Program-made: the position numbers and the translations under genes | From: Brevibacillus laterosporus | GTDB taxonomy: Bacteria > Bacillota > Bacilli > Brevibacillales > Brevibacillaceae | Direction of reading: 5' to 3' | Assembly: GCA_007833815.1 (NCBI GenBank) | Contig: CP033464.1 | Coordinates: 3,838,001-3,902,000, forward strand | Length of the DNA: 64,000 nucleotides | Part shown: positions 1-15,621 of the stretch, piece after piece | Layout: every line of letters starts with the position of its first letter | Numbering within the stretch: position 1 is the stretch's first letter | The notes under the pieces: generated by a model | The model's database searches: none | Seen by the model: only the letters and a program-made list of their open reading frames with translations | What the model was told of the DNA's origin: nothing

Positions 1-811
<811 letters not shown>

Positions 812-900
812 TCACTCCTTCTCATGTAATCCTTTGCATTATTGTGCATCAATATACCTTGTTACTTAAGTTTTTTAACAACTTATTCAGTAGGAGTTAC

Positions 901-918
901 ACCCCTTATTGAAGGGGT
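901..918. promoter_or_regulatory. 7-bp inverted repeat upstream of the MFS gene
   Basis: ACCCCTT, four-base loop, AAGGGGT. It lies between the alarmone synthetase and the MFS exporter. No T-tract follows it on the minus strand, so it is more likely an operator or weak pause hairpin than a terminator. Function is inferred from position only. Confidence 0.3.
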
Positions 919-1003
919 TAGTTGATATTTATTTTCCATTTTTCAACTCTTTTATTTCCATATAAATCCTCCTAGTATAAAAAAGATATTAAAACATTGT
1001 TGG

Positions 1004-1651
1004 TTAATGTAAATTTTTGACTTCATCGTGAATACTCATCATTTTTTCATCCATTAATTTAGCAGTTTGCGATGCTTCTAATAGGTCTTTCTCTAGATAG
1101 TTAGGGATTCTTTTATCATATTTGTAATAAATTTTATGTTCCAAACTAGCCCAAAAATCCATGGCTAACGTTCGAAGCTGAATTTCGGCATAAACATTTT
1201 CAATTCCGTGAGATAATGTAACAGGAATTTGGACTATTAAATGTAAACTTTGATACCCATTTGGTTTCGGACACTTAATGTAATCCTTTACTTCCATGAT
1301 TTTTATATCTTTTCGATTTATTAGCTGGTCGTAGATGTCATAGATATCATTGACAAAGGAACAAACTATTCTCATTCCAGCAATATCAAATAAATGACTT
1401 TTTGAACTTAACAATGACGGGACGATATTTTTTCTTTCTAGTTTCGCCATTATACTTTCCGGACTTTTAATTCTCGTTTTAATATGTTCAATTGGATTGT
1501 AATCATTTAAATATTTTGCTTCTTCAGCCATAATATTAATTTTCGTTTTCAGTTCATCTAATGCGAATTTATAGGGTAATAAGAAGTGACTCCATCTTTG
1601 CACATCTTCCATTTGGAACTTCCTCATTTCTTTGACTTCTAAATCTTTCAT
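1004..1651 (-). CDS. Small alarmone synthetase (RelQ/YjbM-like, RelA_SpoT domain)
   Basis: 215 residues, the size of single-domain (p)ppGpp synthetases, which transfer pyrophosphate from ATP to GDP or GTP. Visible family features are RIKSPESI (about residue 60), DIAGMRIVCSF (about 90), DYIKCPKPNGYQSLHL (about 122-137) and AEIQLRTLAMDFWASLEHK (about 154-172). There is no hydrolase, TGS or ACT domain. The start ATG overlaps the stop of the upstream TetR gene in an ATGA, implying translational coupling. Pairing a dedicated alarmone synthetase with a TetR regulator and exporters suggests stress- or drug-inducible alarmone production, but that link is inference. The first 78 residues recur identically in the truncated copy at 9898-10140. 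Confidence 0.88.
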   Translation of the reverse strand: MKDLEVKEMRKFQMEDVQRWSHFLLPYKFALDELKTKINIMAEEAKYLNDYNPIEHIKTRIKSPESIMAKLERKNIVPSLLSSKSHLFDIAGMRIVCSFVNDIYDIYDQLINRKDIKIMEVKDYIKCPKPNGYQSLHLIVQIPVTLSHGIENVYAEIQLRTLAMDFWASLEHKIYYKYDKRIPNYLEKDLLEASQTAKLMDEKMMSIHDEVKNLH

Positions 1652-2362
1652 TTATACACCTCTTTATAAAAACCTTTTTTAAGTAAGGAAAGGTCTAAAG
1701 TATAGTTTTTTACCGACTCATCCAAGGGGAGGTCCTTTGCGAAATTTTGAATGAGATTTTGAAACGTCACAGCCATGATAATCTTCAGGACATGGAATAT
1801 TTCTCGTTCATCAGTTATGTTTAGTTTTTCTGTACTTATTAAAACCATGATTTCTGATAATCGATTTTTATAATTAACCTCGTTCACATTTCGGGTCAAT
1901 GTATTTTCAACTTTATAATTCATATTCAAAAAGGCATTTCTAAAAAAGTTGCGATTTTCTAGGTTCTGAAAGCCAATTAACATATAATGGTAAAATCCGA
2001 TAAATGAGTCAAATAAATCGCCATCCTTTTCTTTTAATATCGAAATAAACTTCTCATTGTCCCTTTTGGAGTTCTCATTTAATAAAAAGAAGAAAACATC
2101 TTCTTTATCCTCAAAGTATTGATAAAAGCTTCCCCTAGGTATTCCGGCGTCCTTAATAATATTGGAAATCGATGCTTCGAATAATGGAACTCTTGAAAAT
2201 TCTTTCATAGCAGCATTTATTAAGGTTTCTTTTTTATTATTTGGTAAATTAAAAAAGGTTTGTTTAGGCATTCTTTATCCTCCAATCAAGTGAAGTGACG
2301 ATGTGTCACAGTCAAATATATTCAATCATAAACGACAACGTGTCATATGTCAACAAAAAATG
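1402..2362. repeat. Direct duplication, copy 1 (alarmone synthetase start, TetR, promoter)
   Basis: 961 bp nearly identical to 9892-10851. The two differ by scattered substitutions and one single-base deletion in copy 2. Both copies are in the same orientation. Homology starts at ttgaactta inside the synthetase gene and ends at caacaaaaaatg in the TetR promoter. The next 45 bp (2363-2407) match 13011-13056 instead, upstream of the ABC gene. Confidence 0.9.
1648..2271 (-). CDS. TetR/AcrR family regulator, copy 1
   Basis: 207 residues. The N-terminal helix-turn-helix is clear: NNKKETLINAAMKEFS, then ISNIIKDAGIPRGSFYQYF and DKEDVFFFLL, the canonical TetR DNA-binding segment. The C-terminal ligand domain is not recognisable to a ligand. 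The promoter upstream overlaps three palindromic operators, so it is very likely autoregulated and controls the coupled alarmone synthetase and possibly the MFS exporter. It differs from copy 2 (10137-10760) at only eight residues, four of them in the ligand domain (Tyr/Phe, Ile/Met, Gly/Asn, Gln/His). Both copies probably read the same operators, while effector response could differ. Confidence 0.9.
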   Translation of the reverse strand: MPKQTFFNLPNNKKETLINAAMKEFSRVPLFEASISNIIKDAGIPRGSFYQYFEDKEDVFFFLLNENSKRDNEKFISILKEKDGDLFDSFIGFYHYMLIGFQNLENRNFFRNAFLNMNYKVENTLTRNVNEVNYKNRLSEIMVLISTEKLNITDEREIFHVLKIIMAVTFQNLIQNFAKDLPLDESVKNYTLDLSLLKKGFYKEVYK

Positions 2363-2373
2363 ACGGTGTGTCA
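2296..2373 (-). promoter_or_regulatory. TetR promoter 1 with three operators
   Basis: On the minus strand there is a consensus -35 TTGACA (2353-2348), a 17-bp spacer and a -10 TATGAT (2330-2325). Three near-palindromes with TGAC and GTCA-type arms lie at 2296-2308 (tgacgatgtgtca), 2333-2345 (in the spacer) and 2361-2373 (just upstream of -35). An operator between -35 and -10 is a classic repression site. That these bind TetR is inferred from position and repetition. Confidence 0.75.
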
Positions 2374-2472
2374 TATCCATTATATGGCTATCGTCATACC
2401 CTTCGAGAGGCACGATAGGAACTCCATATTATTTTTAATTTAATTTCTATGAACAGGTTCATTAGCAAGCAA

Positions 2473-2501
2473 AACGTCCGAATTTTTTGTATTCGGACGT
2501 T
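2473..2501 (-). terminator. Intrinsic terminator of the secreted-protein gene
   Basis: A perfect 11-bp stem (AACGTCCGAAT and its complement) with a seven-base loop, followed on the minus strand by TTTTGC. It lies 57 bp beyond the end of the 2559-3272 gene. Confidence 0.7.
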
Positions 2502-2558
2502 AAGGTTTATACATATGAAATAATTGGTACTCAGCTATGCGACATTGATGTTAAATTC

Positions 2559-3272
2559 TTAATAAACCCTTGTGACAAAACAAAAACCAAGCGGTTCACT
2601 AACATAACCTGAACCTTTTTCGCTATCACTAAAAATACCTTTCTGCATTATTTTAAAATTATGAATTTTATCCATACGATACGCTTGAATTTCGCCTCGT
2701 TTACCATAAGGTACAGAGATATTTTGTTCGTCAGTTTTCGATTCGGTCTTCCCAACAGTAATATCCAATTCAGCTTTTACCAATTTAGCATCAATTTTAT
2801 AAGAAGATTTGAGTGTTACAGCCCAAGAATCTGTAAAAGACATTTTTCCCCCTGGAGGACCATAAAAACTATTTCCTGCCATCTCCATAGCGCAAGCTCT
2901 GGTAGTATTAACATCATCAAGATATAAATCTCCGACTAGATAAGCTCCGTTATCCGCATTGATTTTAGGAGATTCAAGCTTATTATCTTCTTCTGGTATA
3001 ACAACTGTAATTTCATCCTTGGAGTCTAATTCTATTCCTTGTAGCTTAGCAAATCCTTCTGTGTCTGTAATCTTAATAACCTTGTATTGTTCTCCATCAT
3101 TGCCTTTTTTATAGCTTACGTCACCTAGTTTTTCGTATTCGCAGACTTTGGTGAATTGATCAGAAAAATCATTCTCTAAGGTTGTATTTGTTCCTTGTGC
3201 CGATACAGATGTTAATACTGCAAGAAATAAGGTGCAAAATGAGAGAAATGTACGAGAAATTAGTTTTTTCAT
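2559..3272 (-). CDS. Secreted protein of unknown function
   Basis: 237 residues with a strong Sec signal peptide: positive start, hydrophobic core FLSFCTLFLAVLTSV and an Ala-Gln-type cleavage site near residue 25. A strong SD (AGGAGG) precedes the ATG. The mature part is acidic. Its last 100 residues alternate polar and hydrophobic residues (for example SYKIDAKLVKAELDITVGK, then NISVPYGKRGEIQAYRMDK), as in beta-sheet proteins. A strand-T/S-rich-strand-PYGK layout loosely recalls secreted beta-rich proteins, including pore-forming toxins of the ETX/MTX2 type, but I do not recognise a family and the resemblance is weak. The mature part has three Cys, two in the N-terminal half and one in FCFVTRVY at the end. 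It is monocistronic, with its own terminator. Confidence 0.7.
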   Translation of the reverse strand: MKKLISRTFLSFCTLFLAVLTSVSAQGTNTTLENDFSDQFTKVCEYEKLGDVSYKKGNDGEQYKVIKITDTEGFAKLQGIELDSKDEITVVIPEEDNKLESPKINADNGAYLVGDLYLDDVNTTRACAMEMAGNSFYGPPGGKMSFTDSWAVTLKSSYKIDAKLVKAELDITVGKTESKTDEQNISVPYGKRGEIQAYRMDKIHNFKIMQKGIFSDSEKGSGYVSEPLGFCFVTRVY

Positions 3273-3363
3273 TTTTTTCCTCCTGAGTATTTTTTTGTTA
3301 TAATAAGATGTAAATGAGGGAAATTGTTTATGGGTTAAACATTAGAAAAGGTGGGAATTATGA

Positions 3364-3588
3364 GTGAAAAACAAAATTGTTGAGACACTTTGGTATGGAT
3401 TTTTAGCTGGTTTATGCCTAAATATTTTATTTTTAAGTAGGCAAGAATCTGTAGAAGTAAAGGGTACATATACAATTACTGTTTTGACATTAGATGAATA
3501 CATCTTCAAAATTTTAAGGTATTCAATCTGGTTTGCTTTAATCATTGGGGTCATTTACTTCCTGTACTGTAAATTTAGAAAACAATAA
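3364..3588 (+). CDS. Small two-helix membrane protein
   Basis: 74 residues from a GTG with GGTGGG eight bases upstream. Two hydrophobic segments (about residues 9-24 and 52-68) flank a polar stretch, and the C-terminus is basic (CKFRKQ). No family recognised. It is divergent from the secreted-protein gene and followed by a hairpin. An ATG four bases earlier opens only a seven-codon frame, which supports the GTG start. Confidence 0.5.
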   Translation: MKNKIVETLWYGFLAGLCLNILFLSRQESVEVKGTYTITVLTLDEYIFKILRYSIWFALIIGVIYFLYCKFRKQ

Positions 3589-3596
3589 AAGACTAC

Positions 3597-3626
3597 CCTC
3601 AAATATAATTAATATTGTATTTGAGG
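3597..3626 (+). terminator. Hairpin after the small membrane protein gene
   Basis: CCTCAAATA and TATTTGAGG, a perfect 9-bp stem, begins 9 bp after the stop codon. The downstream T content is poor, so termination may be weak. Confidence 0.45.
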
Positions 3627-3784
3627 ACCCCAGTTTGCCTGAAGCCGTACATGCTTGCTAAGGATCGAATACTTTTTTGATATCGCCACCTTTCTTTTCA
3701 CCCACATCCCTTCCAATTATTACTATAAACCACTATTCAGAATAAATAAGACTGAGAAATTTGGTAATAATTACAAAATAATAA

Positions 3785-3802
3785 GAGCGACTATTGTCGC
3801 TC
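3785..3802 (-). terminator. Intrinsic terminator after the 3836-4270 gene
   Basis: GAGCGAC, loop TATT, GTCGCTC, followed on the minus strand by TTATTATTTTG. It lies 33 bp past the stop of the upstream gene. Confidence 0.65.
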
Positions 3803-3835
3803 CCTATCTAACCTTTAGAAGTCTACTACATGATG

Positions 3836-4270
3836 CTAGTGAGTCTCTTTTACCTCTGTCACGTCCACCCTCTCAAACATTCTTATCTCCTGCATAATCT
3901 TTCTATACTCTAATTTTTGTGGCTCTGTTGCGTGATGCCTCTGTGCTTCAAACAATGCTACGCATTGCATGAAAAAAGTTTGATTATTCAGAATTAAGGT
4001 TAAAGCCAAACATCTCAGGGTATTCTTTATCCCCTCTTCATAACGCTCATTTTGAAAATAATAGGTAGCCAAATAAAATCGGAACCGAAGATGATGGTCT
4101 TTATCAATTGGATCATGAGAGTTATGAAAGGTTCGTATCTCTTCAGAAAACTTCTCTATAAAGCTGTCTATCGAAAAAACATGTGTGCTAGCTGACTTCA
4201 CAATCACTGTTAAACCAGATAATATCTCTTCTGGATGATTTTCAAGGAAATTGATGTAATCAACTAGCAC
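3836..4270 (-). CDS. Probable C-terminal fragment of a TPR-type regulator
   Basis: 144 residues, all predicted helical. A TPR-like repeat is visible in RFRFYLATYYFQNERYEEGI followed by a second helical pair (CLALTLILNNQTFFMQCVAL). This resembles the C-terminal repeats of helix-turn-helix/TPR regulators of the Rap/PlcR kind. The start (GTG at 4270) has no Shine-Dalgarno site, and a strong hairpin lies 10 bp upstream, so the gene has probably lost its N-terminal DNA-binding part. It could instead be a stand-alone TPR protein. Family assignment is tentative. Confidence 0.45.
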   Translation of the reverse strand: MLVDYINFLENHPEEILSGLTVIVKSASTHVFSIDSFIEKFSEEIRTFHNSHDPIDKDHHLRFRFYLATYYFQNERYEEGIKNTLRCLALTLILNNQTFFMQCVALFEAQRHHATEPQKLEYRKIMQEIRMFERVDVTEVKETH

Positions 4271-4280
4271 ATTTGTATCA

Positions 4281-4322
4281 GAATGGGTGACTTTACAGTA
4301 TTCAATGTAAGGTTACCCATTC
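4281..4322 (+). terminator. Strong plus-strand terminator without an obvious gene
   Basis: A 17-bp stem, GAATGGGTGACTTTACA against TGTAAGGTTACCCATTC with two G-U pairs and an 8-nt loop, followed by TTTTTATTTCTTT. No plus-strand gene ends here, so it may be a relic of a lost gene or act on antisense transcripts. Confidence 0.55.
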
Positions 4323-4386
4323 TTTTTATTTCTTTAAAAACTAGATATCTATATTCAATTTTATAGTATGGACTGTCAACACTAAA

Positions 4387-4754
4387 CTAAAGAAAGCCGC
4401 ATTTCGGATAATATTCTGGATGCCCCAATACAACAACAGAATTGTAACCAAGTTCTGTTGCTCTTTTTAATGCTTCGCAAATAAATTGTTTTCCTACGCC
4501 TTTATTTTGATACTCTGGTAAGGCAGAAACAGGCGCAAGAGCAAGTGATCGTTACTAATTTTTATTTTCGATAAAAGAATATGACCAACGATTTCGTAAT
4601 TATCTTCCTTATTAATTGCAACTAAAGATAGTTCTGGGATGACTATCTCGGATTTTCTGATTCGAGACACCAATTCATGTTCTTTTTTATGGCTGAATTC
4701 CATAGTAGCAAATGCACTCTTTACGACCGCTTTATCGCTTTCCGCCATGATCAA
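4387..4754 (-). pseudogene. GNAT family N-acetyltransferase, frameshifted and truncated
   Basis: The first frame reads ELSLVAINKEDNYEIVGHILLSKIKI and then drifts into nonsense at about 4545. One frame over, the GNAT core continues: LAPVSALPEYQNKGVGKQFI, ALKRATELGYNSVVVLGHPE and YYPKCGFL, then a stop. QNKGVG is the acetyl-CoA-binding motif A. The substrate-pocket C-terminus of about 40 residues, usual in this YhbS-like group, is missing. The gene is therefore inactive by a frameshift and probably by 3' truncation. It begins near 4748-4754 with ATG/TTG choices. Confidence 0.75.
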
Positions 4755-4762
4755 TTACAACA

Positions 4763-4817
4763 AAACAAGCGATCCTCAAGACAAGGCAAGAGTGCCTTCC
4801 TGAGTGATCGCTCGTTT
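4763..4817 (-). terminator. Long hairpin terminator of the ABC exporter operon
   Basis: An imperfect 55-nt stem-loop (AAACAAGCGATC against GATCGCTCGTTT outside, AAGGC against GCCTT inside), followed on the minus strand by TTTTGTTG. It lies 63 bp downstream of the last ABC gene. Confidence 0.6.
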
Positions 4818-4879
4818 CCAGAGACAACGCTTAGTCACAGATGTTTTTTACCAATGCCATCTCATATTTCATTTTGATG

Positions 4880-6778
4880 TCAGACTGCTGATTCAAATTG
4901 GCTGTTGTAAAGAGTGGTATAGACACCATTCTTGCTAACAAGCTCATCATGTGTGCCCTGCTCAACAATATCGCCATTACGCATAACTAATATCAAATCG
5001 GCGTTTCGAATAGTGGATAATCGATGTGCAATCACAAAGCTCGTTCGCCCTTTCATCAGATTATCCATTGCTTTTTGGATCAAAATCTCGGTACGTGTAT
5101 CCACGCTGCTGGTTGCTTCATCAAGAATTAATATTTTGGGGTCTGCCAAAATGGCTCTGGCTATAGTCAGCAGTTGCTTTTGACCTTGTGATATATTATC
5201 AGCCTCTTCATTAAGTATCATGTTATATCCGTCAGGCAATGTTCGGACAAAATGGTCAACCTGTGCGGCTACAGCCGCATTTTTCACATCCTCTTCGGAA
5301 GCGTCTAGCTTACCATAGCGGATATTGTCGGCAATCGTGCCGTTAAATAACCATGTGTCCTGCAAAACCATTCCAAATAATGAGCGAAGTTCATCGCGTT
5401 TGAACTTTCGAATGTCGTGCCCGTCAATTGTGATCGCACCGTTGTTGACATCATAAAAACGCATTAACAGCTTCACAATTGTCGACTTCCCTGCGCCGGT
5501 TGGGCCGACAATAGCGATCTTCTGCCCTGGCTTAACTTTGGCGCTGAAAGAATTAATAATATTCTTATCTGGATTATAACCAAACGAAACCTGATTAAAG
5601 TCAACATGACCCTCTACATTCACCAGCGTATCGGTATTGGACGCTGCACCATTATGATTCACGGACAGAGCATTTGGCTCTTCCTTCACTTCTTCTGGTT
5701 CGTCCAAAAACTCAAATACACGCTCCGCGGCAGCAGCCGTTTGCTGAAGAACATTGGAGATACTGGCAATTTGAGAAATAGGCTGCGTAAACGAACGTAC
5801 ATATTGAATAAAGGCTTGTATTCCGCCAATAGTCATCGTTCCGTTAGCGGCAAAGTAACCGCCTAATATACAGATGGCTACATATGAGAGATTGCCAATA
5901 AAGGCGGTTATAGGCATCATAAGTCCCGATAGGAAGTTTGCTTTCCATGCGGATTTATAAAGAGATTCGTTATATTGCCCAAAGATTCTTGACGAATCCT
6001 CTTCACCGCCGAAGGCCTTTACCACTACATGGCTGCCGAACATTTCCTCTACATGTCCGTTGACGCTTCCAAGAAACTTCTGTTGGTCTTTAAAATGCCT
6101 TTGTGATTTTTTCATAACTATAATGACTACAATCATGGAAAGAGGAAGAATGCACAATGCAGCCAGAGTAAGCTGCCAACTGATGGAAAACATCATGATG
6201 GCTATACCTATGAGCGAGGCCACCGAAGTGATAATTTGTGTTATACTTTGGTTTAAGGTTTGGCTGATCGTGTCCACATCGTTGGTGATTCTGCTGAGCA
6301 CATCTCCATGTGATACCTTGTCATAGTATCCCAAGGGCAGTTTGTGCATTTTTTCGCTTATATCATTTCTCAGCTTAAAAGTCACCTTTGCAGTTACACC
6401 CGACATCACAAAGCCTTGCAAATAAGAGAAAAGCGCACTGACACCATATAATCCAGCCAACCATAAAATAATCTCGCCAATTTTCCCAAAGTTTATGCCA
6501 CCAGTACCTGCAATTTGCCTCATAATGCCGGTAAAAAGTTCATCGGTGGCTTGTCCCAAAATCTTTGGCCCCAGAATGGTAAACACTGTGGAGATAATGG
6601 CCAGAATACATACAAAAATAATCATCCGTGTATGCTTTCCCAAATATCCAATGAGTTTCGATATCGAACCTTTAAAGTCTTTGGCTTTTGCACCTGCCAT
6701 CATGACACCGGGCATCATGCCGCTACCCATGGGGCCTTTTTGCTCACTGCTTTTCGTTTTATTATTTTGCTGACTCAC
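4880..6778 (-). CDS. ABC exporter half-transporter (TMD-NBD), subunit 2
   Basis: 632 residues: a poly-polar N-terminal tail, six-helix exporter TMD (about 45-345) and NBD (about 390-630). Walker A is GPTGAGKST, the signature is NISQGQKQLL and Walker B is ILILDEATSSVD, with a normal catalytic Glu. Its start overlaps the stop of the preceding ABC gene by 4 bp (coupled translation). With that partner it forms a heterodimeric multidrug-type exporter in the cytoplasmic membrane, comparable to the BmrC/BmrD and LmrC/LmrD pairs. Substrate unknown. Confidence 0.9.
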   Translation of the reverse strand: MSQQNNKTKSSEQKGPMGSGMMPGVMMAGAKAKDFKGSISKLIGYLGKHTRMIIFVCILAIISTVFTILGPKILGQATDELFTGIMRQIAGTGGINFGKIGEIILWLAGLYGVSALFSYLQGFVMSGVTAKVTFKLRNDISEKMHKLPLGYYDKVSHGDVLSRITNDVDTISQTLNQSITQIITSVASLIGIAIMMFSISWQLTLAALCILPLSMIVVIIVMKKSQRHFKDQQKFLGSVNGHVEEMFGSHVVVKAFGGEEDSSRIFGQYNESLYKSAWKANFLSGLMMPITAFIGNLSYVAICILGGYFAANGTMTIGGIQAFIQYVRSFTQPISQIASISNVLQQTAAAAERVFEFLDEPEEVKEEPNALSVNHNGAASNTDTLVNVEGHVDFNQVSFGYNPDKNIINSFSAKVKPGQKIAIVGPTGAGKSTIVKLLMRFYDVNNGAITIDGHDIRKFKRDELRSLFGMVLQDTWLFNGTIADNIRYGKLDASEEDVKNAAVAAQVDHFVRTLPDGYNMILNEEADNISQGQKQLLTIARAILADPKILILDEATSSVDTRTEILIQKAMDNLMKGRTSFVIAHRLSTIRNADLILVMRNGDIVEQGTHDELVSKNGVYTTLYNSQFESAV

Positions 6779-9006
6779 GCTAATTCCTCCCCTGATAGTT
6801 GCGACGAGGCAATCTCATAATATGGTGGGCAGTTTTTCAAAAGTTCCTTATGTGTTCCACATCCAACGATTTTGCCTTCATCCAGGACGATAATTTGTTC
6901 CGCGCTCATAATCGTGCTTACCCTTTGCGCCACTACGATGACCGTACTGTCGCCTGTGTGTTCTTTCAGAGCTTTGCGCAAGGCTGCGTCTGTTTTGAGA
7001 TCTAAAGCGGAGAAGCTGTCGTCAAAGATAAAGATTTCCGGTTCCTTTGCCAATGCTCGCGCAATGGATAATCTCTGCTTTTGCCCACCGGAAACATTCG
7101 TGCCGCCTTGAGCGATCTCCGAATCCAAACCCTCCGGTTTTTCAGATATAAACTCCAGTGCTTGCGCTACTTTCGCCGCAGTTTCCACATCAGTATCCGT
7201 CGCGTCTTTCTTGCCATAATGAATGTTAGATGCAATAGTCCCGGAGAGCAACACCCCTCTTTGCGGTACATAACCGAATTTGGAACGCAAATCCTTCAGA
7301 TTTGCCTCTCGCACATCCACGCCATCGACCGTAATCTGACCTTTGCTCACATCATAAAACCGAAGCGCCAAGCTCGCAATCGTTGTTTTTCCAGAACCAG
7401 TGGAGCCGATAATGGCAGTTGTTTCACCCGGTTTTGCAGTAAATGTAACATCGCTTAGAGCGTCTTCTTCCGCGCCATGATATCGAAAATGAACATGCTT
7501 AAACTCTACAAGACCTTTTTGAGTAGCATTAAAACGTTTAGGGTTCTGCGGTTCATCAATGGAATTCTTCGTTTCTAACACTTCGGCGATGCGACCAGCC
7601 GACACCGCTGCCCGAGGGACAAGAATAAACGTCATAGAAAGCATCAAGAAAGCCGTAATGATTTGGATGGCATATTGCATAAATGCCATCATATCGCCAA
7701 CCTGCATGGTAGAACTTGCAATGTGATGGGCGCCGACCCAAACAATGATCAGAGTTACGCCGTTCATAACGAGCATCATAATAGGCATCAGCGACACCAT
7801 AACGCGGTTTACAAACAGATTTGTTTCTGTCAAATCCCCATTTGCCTTTTCAAAGCGTTTCTTCTCATGCCTCTTTGTACCGAATGCACGGATAACCGTC
7901 ATGCCACTTAAATTTTCTCTAGAAACCAAATTCAGTTTGTCAACCATGTTTTGAATGATTTTAAATTTGGGCATGGCGATGGCCATAATAACCAAAATCA
8001 TGCCTACAAGAACGATGCACGCAACCGCGATAATCCAACTCATGGAGATTGATTTGTTTACTGCCATAATGACACCGCCGATTCCCATGATCGGTGCATA
8101 GCAGATCATTCTGATTCCCATCATGAGCAGCTGTTGTATTTGAGTAATGTCGTTGGTGCATCGTGTAATGAGGGAAGCTACCGAGAACTTATCAAATTCG
8201 ACATTTGAAAAGCTCTCAATTTTGTCAAACACATCTTTACGCAAATTCCGGGCGACTCCAGCCGCAATTCTTGAAGACAATAAGCTAACCAAAACCGTGG
8301 CCAATCCACCCAATAAGGCTATCGCAAGCATCAATAGACCTATTCTAAGAATATAGGCGGTCTGCATACCGCTTATGTCCATACCTAACTCATCGTAAAA
8401 AGCCTTAGCGAACATAATACCGCTTTGCTTTAGTGAGGCCTCGTTATTGACTGCTTTTTCGTGTGCAGCAGCAACGGCAGATTCCGGTAACGTCTCAAGC
8501 ATCGGTTGTGCCTGATAAAGCTGTGTGAGGTCGATACCATTTGAAACGGTTGATTCAGTGCCGTCATTAACATCACTAGGTTGTTCTGCCATATCTTGCA
8601 TGACATTCATCAGTGTCCCCGTTGCTGCTTCGAAGGCACGATCAAGTCCTGCATTAACGGCCTTGTCTACATTCTTTTTCACAAAAATCTGCGCAACGGC
8701 CTCGGGGTAAAGACTGTTATATGTCTTTCCATCTGCATTCTTGTCTGTGACGGATACAAGCTCATAATTTTCATCAACAAGCTGCTTTTCGCTGGCAGTC
8801 ATAAAGGTGGTCATTAGATTTATTCCGTCCTGGCTGATCGCATCGGGAGCAGAGTTTTCAATACCGTTTTGCTGAATACCGACATTTACAATGTCCGACA
8901 TATAGTTCGGCAGACTTAATTCGCTTATAGCTTGTCCGAATAAAAGAACAATAGCCGAAATCAATCCGAAAATAAATGGCTTTAAATACTTTGCAAGCTT
9001 TATCAA
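6775..9006 (-). CDS. ABC exporter half-transporter (TMD-NBD), subunit 1 with extracellular insertion
   Basis: 743 residues, about 150 longer than a standard half-transporter. The excess is a hydrophilic acidic segment (about residues 45-205) between the first and second membrane helices, so it should lie outside the cell. The NBD has Walker A GSTGSGKTT and signature NVSGGQKQRL, but Walker B ends FIFDDSFSALD: Asp replaces the catalytic Glu, the usual degenerate site of heterodimeric exporters. Its partner at 4880-6778 has the normal Glu. The remnant of a MarR regulator lies directly upstream, so the pair was once MarR-controlled and may now be deregulated. Substrate unknown. Confidence 0.9.
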   Translation of the reverse strand: MIKLAKYLKPFIFGLISAIVLLFGQAISELSLPNYMSDIVNVGIQQNGIENSAPDAISQDGINLMTTFMTASEKQLVDENYELVSVTDKNADGKTYNSLYPEAVAQIFVKKNVDKAVNAGLDRAFEAATGTLMNVMQDMAEQPSDVNDGTESTVSNGIDLTQLYQAQPMLETLPESAVAAAHEKAVNNEASLKQSGIMFAKAFYDELGMDISGMQTAYILRIGLLMLAIALLGGLATVLVSLLSSRIAAGVARNLRKDVFDKIESFSNVEFDKFSVASLITRCTNDITQIQQLLMMGIRMICYAPIMGIGGVIMAVNKSISMSWIIAVACIVLVGMILVIMAIAMPKFKIIQNMVDKLNLVSRENLSGMTVIRAFGTKRHEKKRFEKANGDLTETNLFVNRVMVSLMPIMMLVMNGVTLIIVWVGAHHIASSTMQVGDMMAFMQYAIQIITAFLMLSMTFILVPRAAVSAGRIAEVLETKNSIDEPQNPKRFNATQKGLVEFKHVHFRYHGAEEDALSDVTFTAKPGETTAIIGSTGSGKTTIASLALRFYDVSKGQITVDGVDVREANLKDLRSKFGYVPQRGVLLSGTIASNIHYGKKDATDTDVETAAKVAQALEFISEKPEGLDSEIAQGGTNVSGGQKQRLSIARALAKEPEIFIFDDSFSALDLKTDAALRKALKEHTGDSTVIVVAQRVSTIMSAEQIIVLDEGKIVGCGTHKELLKNCPPYYEIASSQLSGEELA

Positions 9007-9036
9007 GTAGATCGTCTCCTTTTCTTAATCTTACTG

Positions 9037-9361
9037 TTAGGACTCGCGCTTCAGCTCTTCGGATATATCCGACAAAAGCGTTAGAAGTTCTATGAGTTGC
9101 TACGTATTTTCTTCCCCAAAACGAGAAATGGTTTTTTGGCATTTTATTGGAGTATTCTTCCGTCCTTCTTAGAACCCCCTGTCCTTCAGAGGTTAGCGCA
9201 ACTGCAATTTTTCGCCGATCACTCTTGTCAATCTCACGGATGACATAACCCTTTTTTTCAAGTGTATTAAGCATTTGTGAAACGGCAGGTTTTGTAATGT
9301 AGAGATTGCTTTGAATATCAGATACATAAACCTTTTTATCCGGGCAGGAGGTATTCTCTGT
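9037..9361 (-). pseudogene. MarR family regulator, broken
   Basis: The winged-helix core is intact (VYVSDIQSNLYITKPAVSQM, LNTLEKKGYVIREIDKSDRR, KIAVALTSEG), but the first 40 or so residues are replaced by unrelated MFS sequence. After SNKM the frame shifts, and the normal C-terminus (ISRFGEENT, stop, QLIELLTLLSDISEELKRES) continues in another frame with an in-frame TAG. This would have been the repressor of the two ABC genes that start 31 bp downstream. Three independent lesions show it is dead. Confidence 0.8.
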
Positions 9362-9362
9362 A

Positions 9363-9891
9363 ATCACCCTAATAGGATCGCACCTACCAGCCAGAATGTG
9401 TACGTATGGGTGAATACAATCAACCAGATCGCTCCTGCTTGCGTCCACATTCCAAAAGCAATGAGCCACTTTCGGCCAATTCGATCACTTAATGCCCCGG
9501 TAAATAGCTGGAAGAATCCCCATGCTGTCGGATAAAGGGCTACAATGATGCCAATCTGACTGAATGAAAGGCCGGAAGCCAGAAAGAAAACCGGAAATAG
9601 CCCCCAAGCCATACCATCTTTTAGATTTGTGGAAAGTCCAGCAAAACTACAGCTGGATAATGTTTTATTCTTCCATGTTGTTTGACGGAATACTTCCTGT
9701 GTCGATATTCTTTCATCGGCATCAGACTACTTCTGTTGTTGAGCCTGTATCTTTATATGCTGCGATGTATCTTTCGTAAAGAAAGAGAGAAGAATGCCTA
9801 TGATACTAAAAGCAATTCCGAGATAAAAAGGCTCAGGGCGTAGAGAATAGTTCGAAGCCACATATCCGGAGAGAAGAGTAGCAAGAGCTAC
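9363..9891 (-). pseudogene. MFS transporter, internal fragment
   Basis: Central helices of an MFS protein can be read: LATLLSGYVASNYSLRPEPF, IAFSIIGILLSFFTKDT, then a TAG stop near 9731, then AWGLFPVFFLASGLSFSQIG and GALSDRIGRKWLIAFGMWTQ (motif A of the second half). Both ends are cut off: the left end joins the MarR remnant and the right end joins the duplicated alarmone-synthetase cassette at 9892. It is a passenger fragment trapped between two recombination joints. Confidence 0.75.
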
Positions 9892-10140
9892 TTGAACTTA
9901 ACATGACGGGACGATATTTTTTCTTTCTAGTTTCGCCATTATACTTTCCGGACTTTTAATTCTCGTTTTAATATGTTCAATTGGATTGTAATCATTTAAA
10001 TATTTTGCTTCTTCAGCCATAATATTAATTTTCGTTTTCAGTTCATCTAATGCGAATTTATAGGGTAATAAGAAGTGACTCCATCTTTGCACATCTTCCA
10101 TTTGGAACTTCCTCATTTCTTTGACTTCTAAATCTTTCAT
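9892..10140 (-). pseudogene. Truncated copy of the small alarmone synthetase
   Basis: Starting at 10140 it encodes the same first 78 residues as the gene at 1004-1651. A single-base deletion near 9903 then causes a frameshift and stop after Pro-Ser-Cys, and homology ends at 9892. The RelA_SpoT catalytic segments (DIAGMRI, PNGYQSLH, EIQLRT) are absent, so it cannot make (p)ppGpp. It keeps the ATGA overlap with the TetR gene upstream. Confidence 0.85.
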
Positions 10141-10760
10141 TTATACTCCTCTTTATAAAGACCTTTTTTAAGTAAAGAAAGGTCTAAAGTATAGTTTTTT
10201 ACCGACTCATCCAATGGGAGGTCCCTTGCGAAATTATGAATGAGATTTTGGAACGTCACAGCCATGATAATCTTCAAAACATGGAATATTTCTCGTTCAT
10301 CAGTTATGTTTAGTTTTTCTGTACTTATTAAAACCATGATTTCTGATAATCGATTTTTATAATTAACCTCGTTCACATTTCGGGTCAATGTATTTTCTAC
10401 TTTATAATTCATATTCAAAAAGGCATTTCTAAAAAAGTTGCGATTTTCTAAGTTCTGAAAGTTCATTAACATATAATGGAAGAATCCGATAAATGAGTCA
10501 AATAAATCGCCATCCTTTTCTTTTAATATCGAAATAAACTTCTCATTGTCCCTTTTGGAGTTCTCATTTAATAAAAAGAAGAAAACATCTTCTTTATCCT
10601 CAAAGTATTGATAAAAGCTTCCCCTAGGTATTCCAGCGTCCTTAATAATATTGGAAATCGATGCTTCGAATAATGGAGCTCTTGAAAATTCTTTCATAGC
10701 AGCATTTATTAAGGTTTCTTTTTTATTATTTGGTAAATTAAAAAAGGTTTGTTTAGGCAT
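10137..10760 (-). CDS. TetR/AcrR family regulator, copy 2
   Basis: 207 residues, intact, with the same helix-turn-helix as copy 1 apart from Val to Ala near the recognition region. It probably represses itself and the adjacent ABC exporter, because both promoters carry the same palindromes. Its downstream partner, the alarmone synthetase, is truncated, so this copy controls efflux without the alarmone branch. The function of the C-terminal pocket is unknown. Confidence 0.9.
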   Translation of the reverse strand: MPKQTFFNLPNNKKETLINAAMKEFSRAPLFEASISNIIKDAGIPRGSFYQYFEDKEDVFFFLLNENSKRDNEKFISILKEKDGDLFDSFIGFFHYMLMNFQNLENRNFFRNAFLNMNYKVENTLTRNVNEVNYKNRLSEIMVLISTEKLNITDEREIFHVLKIIMAVTFQNLIHNFARDLPLDESVKNYTLDLSLLKKGLYKEEYK

Positions 10761-10784
10761 TTTTTATCCTCCAATCAAGTAAAA

Positions 10785-10864
10785 TGACGATGTGTCACAG
10801 TCAAATATATTCAATCATAAACGACAACGTGTCATATGTCAACAAAAAATGTGACAATGTGTCG
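10785..10864 (-). promoter_or_regulatory. TetR promoter 2 with three operators
   Basis: Same architecture as promoter 1: TTGACA (10842-10837), 17-bp spacer, TATGAT (10819-10814). Palindromes lie at 10785-10797, 10822-10834 (in the spacer) and 10852-10864. The last is a different version (tgacaatgtgtcg) from copy 1. Confidence 0.75.
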
Positions 10865-10902
10865 CTGTCGTTTATATTAGAACCTTAGATTAAGTCAAAA
10901 TT

Positions 10903-12864
10903 TTATTCAAATCTTAGCGATTCCATCGGGTCCAATTTTGCAGCTTTGGATGATGGCATAATTCCTGCAATTATACTTACAATCATACTGACCGCTATAC
11001 CAAAGAACACATTTTGTCCCGTTAGATTGATGAGTTCTGCACCGAAGCTATTTGATAAAATGCTATTTCCTATTACACTAATAACTGTGGCAACAATCAC
11101 AGCTATTAACCCACTAAATAATCCAAGCAAAGCCGATTCTGAGAAGAAAATTCGTTTTATGTCTTTCTTTCTTGCCCCAACAGCACGTAATATTCCAATT
11201 TCTTTTGTTCTTTCAACTACGCTGATATATAAAACAACTAAAATCATAATACCCGAAACAATTAGAGAAATTCCCGCAATTCCTGCCAGTAGGACAGTAG
11301 CCATATCTAAATAGGAAGTAACCTTTTTAAGCATTTCAGCCATTTGCGAACTTTCAAATCCATCATTCTCTAATTTTGTTTTAATCGCATCTACCTGTTC
11401 TTGTTTATCTGCAAATGCGTTAATTTGAGTAGGGCTTAAAGTTAATCCCTGCTTTGCATATGCATTTTCTAATGTTTCATATTTTACATATGCCATCGTT
11501 GTTCCTTGTGGTCCCATACTTTCAGCCTTATAAATACCAGACACTTTTAATTTATTTTCGATGGTAACAGGTTTGTTGTCTATTCCAATTTCGGTAACAT
11601 AGACACTTATTTCTTTACCAATTAACGACTTGTAGTTTTCATTGCTGCTTAATGCTTTCGCTAAAGATGGTGTTAAGAGAACCTCATTTTCACCTGGAAG
11701 ATGACCTTTTTCTACATTTTCCTTTTTAATTGAATCAGTCATGGTTGAGAATTGCATGATATCTGAACGCTTGTCCCCTAATCCTGCACTACTTTTCATG
11801 TTAAAAGATGTTACTTTCTCAACCCTATTAACGTGTTCAATATTTTTAATTTGTTCAATATCTTCTTCGTTAAAAGGTTCTTTTGCACCTAACATAGGCA
11901 TGGAATTACCTGTATCATTATTTTCTTCCCCTTTTTTGGTGATTTCAACCATTAAGGGGTTCATACTGGAGTTGATTTCTTCATTGATATAGTTTGTTAC
12001 ACCGCTACCTAATGACAACATCAAAATAACACTTAATATACCAATGGAACCACCTAAAGCGACTAAGATATTTCTTTTTGCATTCAACTTCATATTTTTC
12101 AACGCAAGTTTAAACGAAGAAGCCAAGCTAAGGCTTTTAGATTTTACTTGTGGAGACGTTTCTTTAGCTTGGTAACTATCCTTCAGATTTATGTCTTCGA
12201 TAACTTTCCCATCATCAATTTTCACAATTCTACTACCAGAATCGGCAACCTTTTGAGAGTGAGTTACTGTGATTACTAGTTTTCCCTTTTTTGCAATGTT
12301 ATCTAGTAATTCAAGTATTTGTTGACTCGTTTCTTTATCCAAAGCTCCCGTTGGTTCGTCAGCTAAAAGGATTTCTGGTTCGTTAGCTAATGCACGAGCA
12401 ATTGCTACACGCTGTTTTTGTCCACCAGAAAGTTGATTTGGCTTTTTCATCATGTGTTCTTTTAAGCCGACTTCAGTTAAAAGGTCTTTTGCTCTTTCAT
12501 TTCGTTCTTTTTCACTCTTACTTGCCATTTGCATGACAATCGTTACGTTTTCTAATACGCTAAGGTGGGGGATTAAATTAAAACTTTGGAATACAAAACC
12601 GATTTTACTTTTTCTATAATCATCAAGTTCATGTTCCTTCATGTTTTTTAAGTTCGTTCCTTCTACCAGGACTTCTCCTCCAAAATCAGAGTCCATCCCA
12701 CCAATAATATTCATTAAAGTTGATTTTCCACATCCTGATTCACCAAGTATAGATACGAACTCTCCTTTATTAAAACTTAGATTTACATCATGAAGTATTT
12801 TTGTTTTTTCTTTTTTATAAATGGTATATGACTTGTTTATATTTTTTACTTCTAACAAATTCAT
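10903..12864 (-). CDS. MacB-like ABC exporter, ATPase fused to FtsX-type permease
   Basis: 653 residues if started at the ATG at 12864, which has AAGGAGG seven bases upstream; an in-frame ATG 30 bp earlier would place that SD inside the gene. The NBD occupies about residues 1-235: Walker [10 protein letters not shown], signature [10 protein letters not shown], Walker [13 protein letters not shown]. The permease follows with one helix near 270, a large extracellular domain (about 295-520) and three C-terminal helices separated by an [19 protein letters not shown] loop, the FtsX hallmark. Such fusions export peptides, lipoproteins or drugs. It lies downstream of its own triple-operator promoter and upstream of TetR copy 2, so it is probably induced when that TetR releases. 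Confidence 0.9.
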
Positions 12865-12941
12865 TATGAACCTCCTTGAATATTTATATTTCAAAACAAA
12901 GATGTTTGATAATACTATATTACTCCAATCTAGCTTAAAAG

Positions 12942-13021
12942 TGACAACGTGTCATAACTGAGCATAAACCAATAATAAATGACAACGTGTTTATATGTCA
13001 ACAAAAAATGACGATGTGTCA
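12942..13021 (-). promoter_or_regulatory. ABC exporter promoter with three TetR-type operators
   Basis: TTGACA (13001-12996), 18-bp spacer, TATTAT (12977-12972). Palindromes lie at 12942-12954 (tgacaacgtgtca, the most symmetrical arms), 12980-12992 (one arm degenerate) and 13009-13021. The arrangement matches the two TetR promoters, supporting one shared regulon. Confidence 0.7.
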
Positions 13022-13041
13022 TATCCATTATATGGCTATCG

Positions 13042-13158
13042 TCATACCCTTCGAGTAGAGCTTACTAATTGTTTAGCTTCTTCTTCTACCGATTCATCGT
13101 CATCCATTTCAGACATCCTCAATTTAATGATTAAGGAACCTTGTGTTTCTACTCTCAC
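13042..13158 (-). CDS. Possible 38-residue small ORF upstream of the ABC exporter
   Basis: GTG start with GGAAGGGG seven bases upstream. The product is acidic in the middle (MSEMDDDESVEEEAK) and ends SSTRRV. It ends just upstream of the operator array. The same 3' end (from the ctcgaag complement to the operators) is retained in copy 1 at 2361-2407, so that copy once carried this ORF or its tail. No family recognised. Coding status is uncertain. Confidence 0.3.
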   Translation of the reverse strand: MRVETQGSLIIKLRMSEMDDDESVEEEAKQLVSSTRRV

Positions 13159-13302
13159 GGTTCTACCCCTTCCTATGAACAGTCTCAATTGTTGTTTTGA
13201 TAATATCTTACAATATCAACCTGTTTCTGTTCCTTTTCGCTTCACTTTTAGGAAGTCGGGTTAAAAAGAGTGAAAGTTTTTGTTTAGTCTCCACTAGGAA
13301 GA

Positions 13303-13359
13303 TCAGACAGATGTTAGATACCAACGTAATTTTTCTTTGTCTTGAAGAACAACTTTCAT
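13303..13359 (-). CDS. Possible 18-codon leader ORF
   Basis: ATG preceded by AGAAAGGATG, reading MKVVLQDKEKLRWYLTSV then TGA. It lies upstream of the 38-residue ORF and the ABC gene on the same strand. It could be a regulatory leader or chance. There is no independent support. Confidence 0.2.
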   Translation of the reverse strand: MKVVLQDKEKLRWYLTSV

Positions 13360-13387
13360 GATGATCATCCTTTCTGAATTTGGCCAA

Positions 13388-13413
13388 TAAAAAAAGATGC
13401 AGCATAAGCTACA
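13388..13413 (-). terminator. Intrinsic terminator of the two-cysteine protein pair
   Basis: TGCAGC, loop, GCTACA with one G-U pair, followed on the minus strand by TTTTTTTTATT. It lies 34 bp after the stop of the 13447-13677 gene. Confidence 0.6.
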
Positions 13414-13446
13414 CCCTTACATAAAGTTGTTTGTTACAAATACCAA

Positions 13447-13677
13447 CTATAATGCGTCTTTTGTTTTGCATGTGAATGTAAATCCTAATCCGCCCCAGGT
13501 ATTTGATACTTCTGGAACGCCTCCAGCTTCTTTACAATCTTGGGACTGCATTTCAGTAAGTTTGTAGTTTCTAACATGGTGAAAGTTCAAAAAAGTAAAA
13601 CAAACCGCAACAAAGACCATGATCAACAGGGGATAGATCATTCTTTTTCGTTTACTTTTTATTGTCTGATTTTGCAT
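13447..13677 (-). CDS. Small membrane-anchored protein with two-cysteine module
   Basis: 76 residues: a basic N-terminus (KSKRKR), one hydrophobic helix (about 14-29, MIYPLLIMVFVAVCFTFL), then an outside domain ending QDCKEAGGVPEVSNTWGGLG and FTFTCK. The final module matches the C-terminus of its upstream neighbour almost position for position (C-K-x-A-G-G-x-P-E-V-x-N-T-x3-G-x-G, then CK). The two Cys, about 25 residues apart, probably form a disulfide. The start lies 19 bp inside the neighbour gene, implying translational coupling. Family unknown to me. Accessory secreted, immunity or surface functions are all possible. Confidence 0.6.
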   Translation of the reverse strand: MQNQTIKSKRKRMIYPLLIMVFVAVCFTFLNFHHVRNYKLTEMQSQDCKEAGGVPEVSNTWGGLGFTFTCKTKDAL

Positions 13678-13997
13678 TTGACATCATATCCAATGCCAGG
13701 AAAAGTGTTTTTTACTTCTGGAATCCCCCCTGCATCTTTGCAATCTTGAGCACGTCTTTCAGCCATATCAGAATTTCTTTCATGGACTGTATAAACCGTA
13801 TAAGTGGTAGCACCTGCTGTTACAATCGCTGCAATGGCCCATATTACAGGGAGAATGCCTTGCTGCTGCTTAGTAATATTGATTGGTATAGCTCCATGAT
13901 CTGCTGCTGAAATTGACGCCGGACCTAATACTAGAGAAGAAGACAAGATCGATAACGACAAGATGACTGAAAGGAAAATGGAATTACCTTTAAACAT
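13659..13997 (-). CDS. Secreted/membrane protein with two-cysteine module, paralogue
   Basis: 112 residues: a signal peptide (FLSVILSLSILSSSLVLGPA, cleavage likely at ISA-AD, about residue 32), a short segment, a second hydrophobic helix (about 48-64, LPVIWAIAAIVTAGATT), then HERNSDMAERR and the shared module QDCKDAGGIPEVKNTFPGIG with YDVKCK. It has a good SD (AGGAGG). First gene of a two-gene unit with 13447-13677. The layout suggests the module sits outside the membrane. Confidence 0.65.
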   Translation of the reverse strand: MFKGNSIFLSVILSLSILSSSLVLGPASISAADHGAIPINITKQQQGILPVIWAIAAIVTAGATTYTVYTVHERNSDMAERRAQDCKDAGGIPEVKNTFPGIGYDVKCKIRQ

Positions 13998-14056
13998 TTT
14001 TAAATCCTCCTAACAATGTTATATTTTTGTTCATAATATGGATTCTACAGTTTATT

Positions 14057-14078
14057 GGTAATTCCCCCTGGTAATTCC
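14057..14078. repeat. Direct repeat GGTAATTCC x2 upstream of the MFS pseudogene
   Basis: Two identical 9-mers, 13 bp between starts, in the region between divergent genes. Could be a regulator site; no partner identified. Confidence 0.3.
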
Positions 14079-14095
14079 ATATGTTTATTTTTCCT

Positions 14096-14185
14096 ATGAT
14101 GATTTTTACTAATATTTATGCTCAATGTGAGATGCAATTAAAGTTTATTGAAGATATGAAACAAGAATTAAAAATAAATACGTAA
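14096..14185 (+). pseudogene. Possible C-terminal remnant of a regulator
   Basis: 29 codons ending CEMQLKFIEDMKQELKINT and a TAA, 20 bp before the MFS start. The amphipathic helical tail resembles the end of a small regulator such as MarR or MerR types, which often precede drug exporters, but it is too short to assign. Confidence 0.2.
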
Positions 14186-14205
14186 ACGGAAAGGGAGGAT
14201 TCTCA

Positions 14206-15047
14206 ATGGAAATTTCGCTTATTTCAGAGAAAACGAAAAAGGCAGCCCTATTTGTTGTTGCTTTAGCAGTATTCACTGATATGCTTATCTATGGATTAAT
14301 TGTGCCAATCTTGCCTAAATACGTCACATCACTAGGGGCTTCTCAAACGGCTATCGGATTCCTGTTCAGTAGTTATGCCATAACGCTTTTAATCGCAACT
14401 CCTGTTTTTGGAGCATTATCAGATAAGATTGGAAGAAAGGGGCCTATGCTATGAGGATTATTAGGCTTGGGAGCTGCAACAATCTTATTTGCTTTTGCTG
14501 ACAGCTTTTGGATACTCGTTATCGCACGCTCACTTCAAGGTCTTGAAGTGTGTTAGAACCCACACTTCCACTACATTTACAGAAGGTTCTAAGTGCAACA
14601 CCTGGTGTTATAGGTCTGCTATTTGCTGTTCCAACTCTAGCTTATGGCTTACCAACTCCAATTATTGGTACAATGTCTACTCGTATTGGACACATGAAAG
14701 CAATTATTACAGGTCTAATTATGGTGGCTATTGCACTACCCTTGGTTGCTCTTCCGAATATGCTTTGGGTGCAGGTGTGCGCTCTAGCCTTTTTAGGAAT
14801 CAGTATGGGAATGGTTCTTGCACCATGCCTTCCACAACTCGCAGATATTTCACAAAAAAGTGGTATTAATTCATATGGAATTACATTCGCTCTTTATAAT
14901 ACGGCTTATTCAATCGGTATGATGATTGGGCCAATAGCTAGTAGTACAATAGCAGATGCATTTGGATTAACAATATCCTACATGACAATAGCCGCTATCG
15001 TTCTACTATACATGATATTTTTAACTACAACTTCGCGATCTCAATGA
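14206..15047 (+). pseudogene. MFS drug exporter (Bmr/Blt-like), broken
   Basis: Start ATG with GGGAGG upstream. The first four helices read normally (LFVVALAVFTDMLIYGLIVP, GALSDKIGRKGPML motif A) until TGA at 14452 where TGG (Trp) is expected. Reading on gives GLLGLGAATILFAFADSFWI and ARSLQG. At about 14545 the frame changes and the sequence jumps to helices 7-12 (GVIGLLFAVPTLAYGLPTPI, LAFLGISMGMVLAPCLPQLA, SIGMMIGPIASSTIADAFGL). The centre (helices 5-6 and the long loop) is deleted. A nonsense mutation plus an internal deletion make it non-functional. Confidence 0.85.
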
Positions 15048-15117
15048 TATAGTTGCGGATTCCCCCCTTAATAAAATAGTTGTTTACGAAATAAAAGAGA
15101 TGTTTATTTACGAAAAA

Positions 15118-15148
15118 AGCACATTCAGATAATCGATCTGAGTGTGCT
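15118..15148 (-). terminator. Hairpin with minus-strand T-tract
   Basis: AGCACATTCAGAT against ATCTGAGTGTGCT (one mismatch), followed on the minus strand by TTTTTTCG. It lies downstream of the SDR remnant, for which it was probably the terminator. Confidence 0.5.
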
Positions 15149-15266
15149 ACTTAATAACAATGCTCGGTGTGGGTGCCGGTTTGATAGCAAAAACCCCCGA
15201 TTCACGAGCGTATTTCATTTCTTACTTATGATCAGGTAGAGGACATTCTACTACTTCATCTATGGG

Positions 15267-15450
15267 TTACTTCATTTCGCCTCCACCACTGACAGGCAGA
15301 TAACTTCCTGTTAGATAGGCACTATCATCACTAATGGCTTTTGCAATATCCTCAGGCTGTCGCATCTGTCTCTACTAATCCTGGAGAGACAACATTTGCT
15401 GTAATGCCTTGACCTCCCAGCTCTTGGGCCCGATCGATGCTTTTTTTGGA
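15267..15450 (-). pseudogene. Short-chain dehydrogenase (SDR), 3' remnant
   Basis: The C-terminal third of an SDR is readable across a frameshift: SKKSIDRAQELGGQGITANV and VSPGLVETDA, then one frame over RQPEDIAKAISDDSAYLTGS and YLPVSGGGEMK with a stop. The NAD-binding TGxxxGIG and the Tyr-x3-Lys active site are missing. It is a relic only. Confidence 0.7.
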
Positions 15451-15621
15451 AGTCAGCAGAGTTTAAGGAGCAACGGGGCTGAATCATTTAATGTTTCTTT
15501 CCTAACCACGTCAAAAAAGCGAGAAGCCCTGCACCACTCTGTCTACTCGAACAGAATGCTTACAGTAACCCCTCGCTTTACCTTCCTTCTCTATATTTAT
15601 TACTATTCCTTCTATACGAAC
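15451..15621. other. Non-coding stretch between SDR remnant and amidohydrolase
   Basis: No supported gene. It may hold further decayed SDR sequence. The two genes flanking it are both on the minus strand. Confidence 0.4.

Follow-up and report, generated by a model that had tools for sequence, protein, structure and literature searches.

The stretch analysed here, 64,000 nucleotides of Brevibacillus laterosporus DNA (contig CP033464.1, positions 3,838,001 to 3,902,000; hereafter the window), carries two versions of a cassette composed of a TetR-type repressor gene and a small alarmone synthetase gene, both on the minus strand. Copy 1 retains an intact synthetase and has no ATP-binding cassette (ABC) transporter gene, whereas copy 2 retains an intact ABC gene and has a truncated synthetase. 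The locus is read here as an efflux-type repressor that would also control an alarmone synthetase, and whose partners have apparently been split into complementary copies. Duplication, pump loss by promoter recombination in copy 1, truncation of the synthetase in copy 2 and shared TetR control are together the best explanation, and a reasonably probable one.

The duplicated cassette and its hybrid promoter

Positions 1414-2360 and 9903-10849 (offset 8489) align over 947 positions, of which 21 differ. On the left side of the block, about 11 bp of further match follow a 1-bp indel. The duplication and the complementary gene content, both proposed in the first-pass annotation of this DNA, are borne out by the alignment and the open reading frames (ORFs). 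The genes are as follows.

1004-1651, minus strand: copy 1 small alarmone synthetase of YwaC/RelP/SasA type, 215 codons, intact (ORF; Pfam RelA_SpoT, 6.6e-35; best PDB match 6fgk, YwaC, 2.4e-64)
1648-2271, minus strand: copy 1 TetR regulator, 207 amino acids, TetR_C_19 C-domain, HrtR-like DNA-binding half (ORF, Pfam, PDB match, residue check)
9364-9891, minus strand: MFS transporter remnant beside the truncated synthetase, with an internal in-frame stop and both ends apparently cut (ORF, Pfam)
9898-10140, minus strand: copy 2 truncated synthetase, 80-codon ORF, first part of the enzyme only (ORF, alignment)
10137-10760, minus strand: copy 2 TetR regulator, 207 amino acids, 96% identical to copy 1 TetR (sequence comparison, alignment)
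10903-12894, minus strand: copy 2 MacB-type ABC transporter, ATPase and FtsX permease in a single chain, likely start near 12864

In copy 1 the ATG of the synthetase overlaps the TetR stop codon (ATGA). The truncated synthetase of copy 2 is identical to copy 1 at 238/238 compared positions, and its stop codon lies just before the MFS remnant. Both TetR copies keep their reading frame, and the copy 2 ABC protein has all of the ABC ATPase, MacB periplasmic core and FtsX permease domains (Pfam).

Upstream of its TetR gene, copy 1 passes into sequence that lies upstream of the ABC gene in copy 2. Positions 2345-2407 equal 12993-13055 at 62 of 63 positions, and a match of such length between the two sequences is not due to chance. 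The first-pass annotation had noticed this match to the far side of the ABC gene; its length of 47 bp fell short by 16 bp. The first 18 bp of the joint recur in the TetR promoter of copy 2. The segments involved are these.

2345-2362, minus strand: 18-bp segment at which the TetR promoter gives way to the ABC promoter flank in copy 1 (sequence comparison)
2363-2407, minus strand: copy 1 flank, in copy 2 found upstream of the ABC gene (62/63 match of 2345-2407 to 12993-13055)
10834-10851, minus strand: 18-bp proposed recombination segment, copy 2 TetR promoter (sequence comparison)
12993-13010, minus strand: 18-bp proposed recombination segment, copy 2 ABC promoter (sequence comparison)
13011-13055, minus strand: ABC upstream flank common to copy 1 (sequence match)

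In the direction of transcription, the core of the copy 1 promoter shares 67 identical bp with the TetR promoter of copy 2 and 21 with its ABC promoter. The 18 bp common to both donor promoters, CATTTTTTGTTGACATAT, include a TTGACA -35 box (boxes were read by eye). Both donor segments occur in copy 2, as direct repeats at a distance of 2,159 bp. The hybrid joint falls inside identical sequence, as a deletion by promoter recombination requires. A crossover between these repeats deletes the ABC gene yet keeps a full promoter, the arrangement seen in copy 1.

The ancestral locus would have had the order flank, operator promoter, MacB-type ABC pump, operator promoter, TetR, synthetase. The same TetR would have governed both promoters. 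The whole locus would then have been duplicated. In copy 1, recombination between the identical -35 segments may have removed the pump gene, leaving a complete three-site promoter to drive TetR and synthetase. In copy 2 the synthetase would have been truncated, with pump and TetR left, so that one TetR is now accompanied by the synthetase and the other by the pump. TetR probably represses all three promoters by binding the sites before the -35 box, in the spacer and after the -10 box; a toxic small molecule would release it, so that export is induced together with a burst of (p)ppGpp/pGpp.

Loss of the pump gene is the best history for copy 1, albeit unproven. The earlier proposal that copy 1 is a deletion derivative is partly supported: the hybrid joint fits it, but an undeleted locus with all three genes was looked for in relatives and not found. 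It is also conceivable, although unlikely, that the order in copy 1 (flank, promoter, TetR, synthetase) is the older one, and that a diverged relative supplied copy 2 with its ABC-promoter-TetR segment through crossovers at these promoter repeats and close to the TetR 3' end. All 21 differences lie inside 1658-2295, that is, TetR and its leader, while none falls in the synthetase part or in the promoter past 2295, and an imported TetR beside a native synthetase would give such a pattern. However, this gain requires an outside donor and two crossovers, and the clustering of differences is modest (the longest clean run was reached in 827 of 20000 draws).

Operator-like sites and their link to the synthetase

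Each of the three promoters has three 13-bp sites of the form TGAC-N5-GTCA: before the -35 box, in the spacer and after the -10 box. Not all are exact: each spacer site, and one of the upstream sites, departs from this form at one or two positions.

2296-2373, minus strand: copy 1 promoter, sites 2296-2308, 2333-2345 (one mismatch) and 2361-2373 (pattern search)
10785-10864, minus strand: copy 2 TetR promoter, sites 10785-10797, 10822-10834 and 10852-10864, the latter two with one mismatch each (pattern search)
12942-13021, minus strand: copy 2 ABC promoter, sites 12942-12954, 12980-12992 (two mismatches, by eye) and 13009-13021 (pattern search)

The window contains five exact sites, all inside these promoters. 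The 250-bp regions ahead of 80 related TetR genes contain 160 exact sites against 0.65 expected from dinucleotide shuffles, and 174 against 8.4 when one mismatch is allowed. At least one exact site occurs within 350 bp upstream of TetR in 71 of the 80 loci. The other nine are exactly those in which a synthetase gene precedes TetR, and there the sites are upstream of the synthetase. The usual spacings between sites are 28-31 and 35-40 bp. Within the genus, widely spaced pairs of exact sites are observed in the genome of the window (two promoters) and in G003 (one), and in none of the four genomes that lack a close TetR. The enrichment, the conservation and this co-occurrence indicate that TetR is the likely binder of the sites.

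The best PDB match of TetR is a chain of 3vok/3vox/3vp5 (E 7.8e-18, residues 1-124). 3VOX and 3VP5 are the HrtR protein of Lactococcus lactis, according to an excerpt of PMC12670364. HrtR contacts DNA through R46 and Y50, binds heme through H72 and H149, and recognizes a 15-nt palindrome, as given in an excerpt of PMC12839281. R46 and Y50 are kept in 82/82 proteins, the window copies included; together with the PDB match, this indicates by homology that the DNA-binding half is HrtR-like. His72 is present in 9 of the 82 (Asn in copy 1). Heme binding in the manner of HrtR is thus unlikely, and the assignment of TetR as a heme sensor was dropped for the missing His72. As to the second heme ligand, His149, the C-terminal half does not align to HrtR; a His at position 160 of the window TetR is conserved in 68 of the 82 proteins.

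The synthetase has a single RelA_SpoT synthetase domain of about 210 amino acids and no hydrolase. It is YwaC-like by homology, and alarmone synthesis is predicted. A reading as a toxin (toxSAS) was provisionally set aside, as the best PDB match, YwaC, and the neighbouring TetR make it less likely.

Outside this genome, 11 synthetase loci are linked to such a TetR, and every one of them carries one or more exact sites in the 350 bp before the first gene of the synthetase transcript. Transcripts were inferred; L070 was scanned over 419 bp, with its sites at 97-132 bp, and L081 has a single exact site. None of the 29 synthetase loci fetched without such a TetR has a site (Fisher P 4e-10), many of these 29 being mutually close relatives, so their effective number is smaller. 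One of them, L151, adjoins a weak TetR-like match (39% over 49 residues) and has no site. In five loci (L072, L085, L086, L096, L099) visual inspection shows a short ORF, about 40 codons long, separating the sites from the synthetase.

It is rather improbable that the synthetase is a mere passenger, its link to the sites being a by-product of TetR autoregulation and the enzyme having no role with the pump. In the window and in L039 the synthetase just follows TetR, as a passenger would. In L034, however, it is divergent from TetR, with separate arrays and its own three-site promoter, and in nine further loci it stands ahead of TetR with the sites upstream of it. On a quick TetR tree, linkage to a synthetase needs three changes among the grouped rows. 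The count rises to seven when all 82 rows are taken and both window copies are treated as linked. The starred branches force only one change, so repeated capture of the synthetase is suggested at most.

The most frequent cargo of the family is an MFS protein directly after TetR (33/80 loci; BLAST clustering, Pfam on one member). AcrB-type pumps and FtsH-type proteases are also found. TetR lies directly ahead of an FtsH-like protease gene in L084, L098, L100, L102 and L105, four of them from Neobacillus (Pfam on L084 only). Of the 12 loci fetched for relatives of the ABC protein, 10 belong to another family (~61% identical); these show neither a TetR match nor an exact site in their 1.5-kb flanks, so the link between ABC and TetR is not universal.

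Genomic surroundings

That the two loci arrived independently on mobile DNA from a common donor pool, with no duplication inside the genome, is very unlikely: the first 15 kb of the window is little syntenic with other Brevibacillus genomes (about 15.5-18 kb is syntenic with three) and the gene of an IS1182 transposase is found to the left of the window, but neither the plasmid collection (a single record reaches E 1e-30, at 36% identity) nor viral contigs (one 27% match) hold a close TetR relative. Searches of phage and plasmid DNA returned only partial synthetase or TetR matches, in 7 records each.

Across 1-15500, synteny with the other five genomes of the genus is slight: G003 shares the ABC-TetR match, and the remaining matches are short and scattered. 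Positions 13457-14090 match an unlinked place in two sister genomes (81-83%), which indicates rearrangement of this part of the window. A macrolide-family glycosyltransferase gene also lies left of the window. A hairpin-bearing repeat at 2468-2534 has four further copies in the genome, 77-96% identical over 52-67 bp, and one in G004. A 92-bp sequence at 4278-4369, directly adjoining a 144-codon ORF, recurs at three or more other places in the genome (91-100% identity) and in G003 and G005 (79-87%). The copy 1 synthetase is followed on its strand by an MFS frame that is open for 535 codons (1-811 and ~793 bp further left); the distal part of this frame matches DHA2-type efflux models. No TGAC-N5-GTCA site at one mismatch or fewer was found at 780-1010.

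Implications and comparison with known systems

The broader result is a family of repressors marked by a recognisable promoter with three sites; it accompanies efflux pumps and, for a minority of lineages, an alarmone synthetase. Tentatively, this HrtR-like family, widespread in Bacillota, may carry its promoter module to repeated captures of the synthetase beside or in place of pumps; drugs or toxins would trigger export and an alarmone pause, and recombination between modules would drop or split the cargo. Near-identical modules in one locus would allow such losses, as in this genome, where the two copies illustrate how repeated promoters could split a regulon into complementary parts. If so, a ligand-responsive TetR with synthetase and efflux cargo would be a direct drug-triggered route to (p)ppGpp-type tolerance, and regulator and site would predict which synthetases respond in this way. 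A search of the open-access literature by title found nothing on a TetR-controlled YwaC-type synthetase, which is weak evidence of absence from print.

The HrtR-HrtBA system of L. lactis likewise combines a TetR repressor and an ABC exporter in one locus. Here, unlike in that system, the similarity is limited to residues 1-124, Asn occupies heme-ligand position 72, ABC is one fused chain instead of separate HrtB and HrtA, and the locus includes an alarmone synthetase and three sites per promoter. The HrtR operator presumably reads like TGACACAGTGTCA; searching text for this string gave no hit. FhtR-HrtBA of Enterococcus faecalis also has a TetR repressor, with two palindromes in an ABC promoter (PMC7858072), although its operator, TTATCAATCGATAA, is unrelated.

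The synthetase resembles the YwaC/SasA/RelP enzymes in its 215 amino acids and its best match to the Bacillus subtilis YwaC structure. The gene for SasA, the B. subtilis YwaC-type synthetase, is an envelope-stress gene under sigma factors M and W in the excerpt of PMC7492591. In contrast, a TetR-type site array lies ahead of the synthetase here. The history proposed for the two copies is also comparable to duplication-degeneration-complementation of gene copies. As in that concept, each copy lacks what the other retained; the difference is that here a regulator has lost entire partner genes, one of them apparently through promoter recombination.
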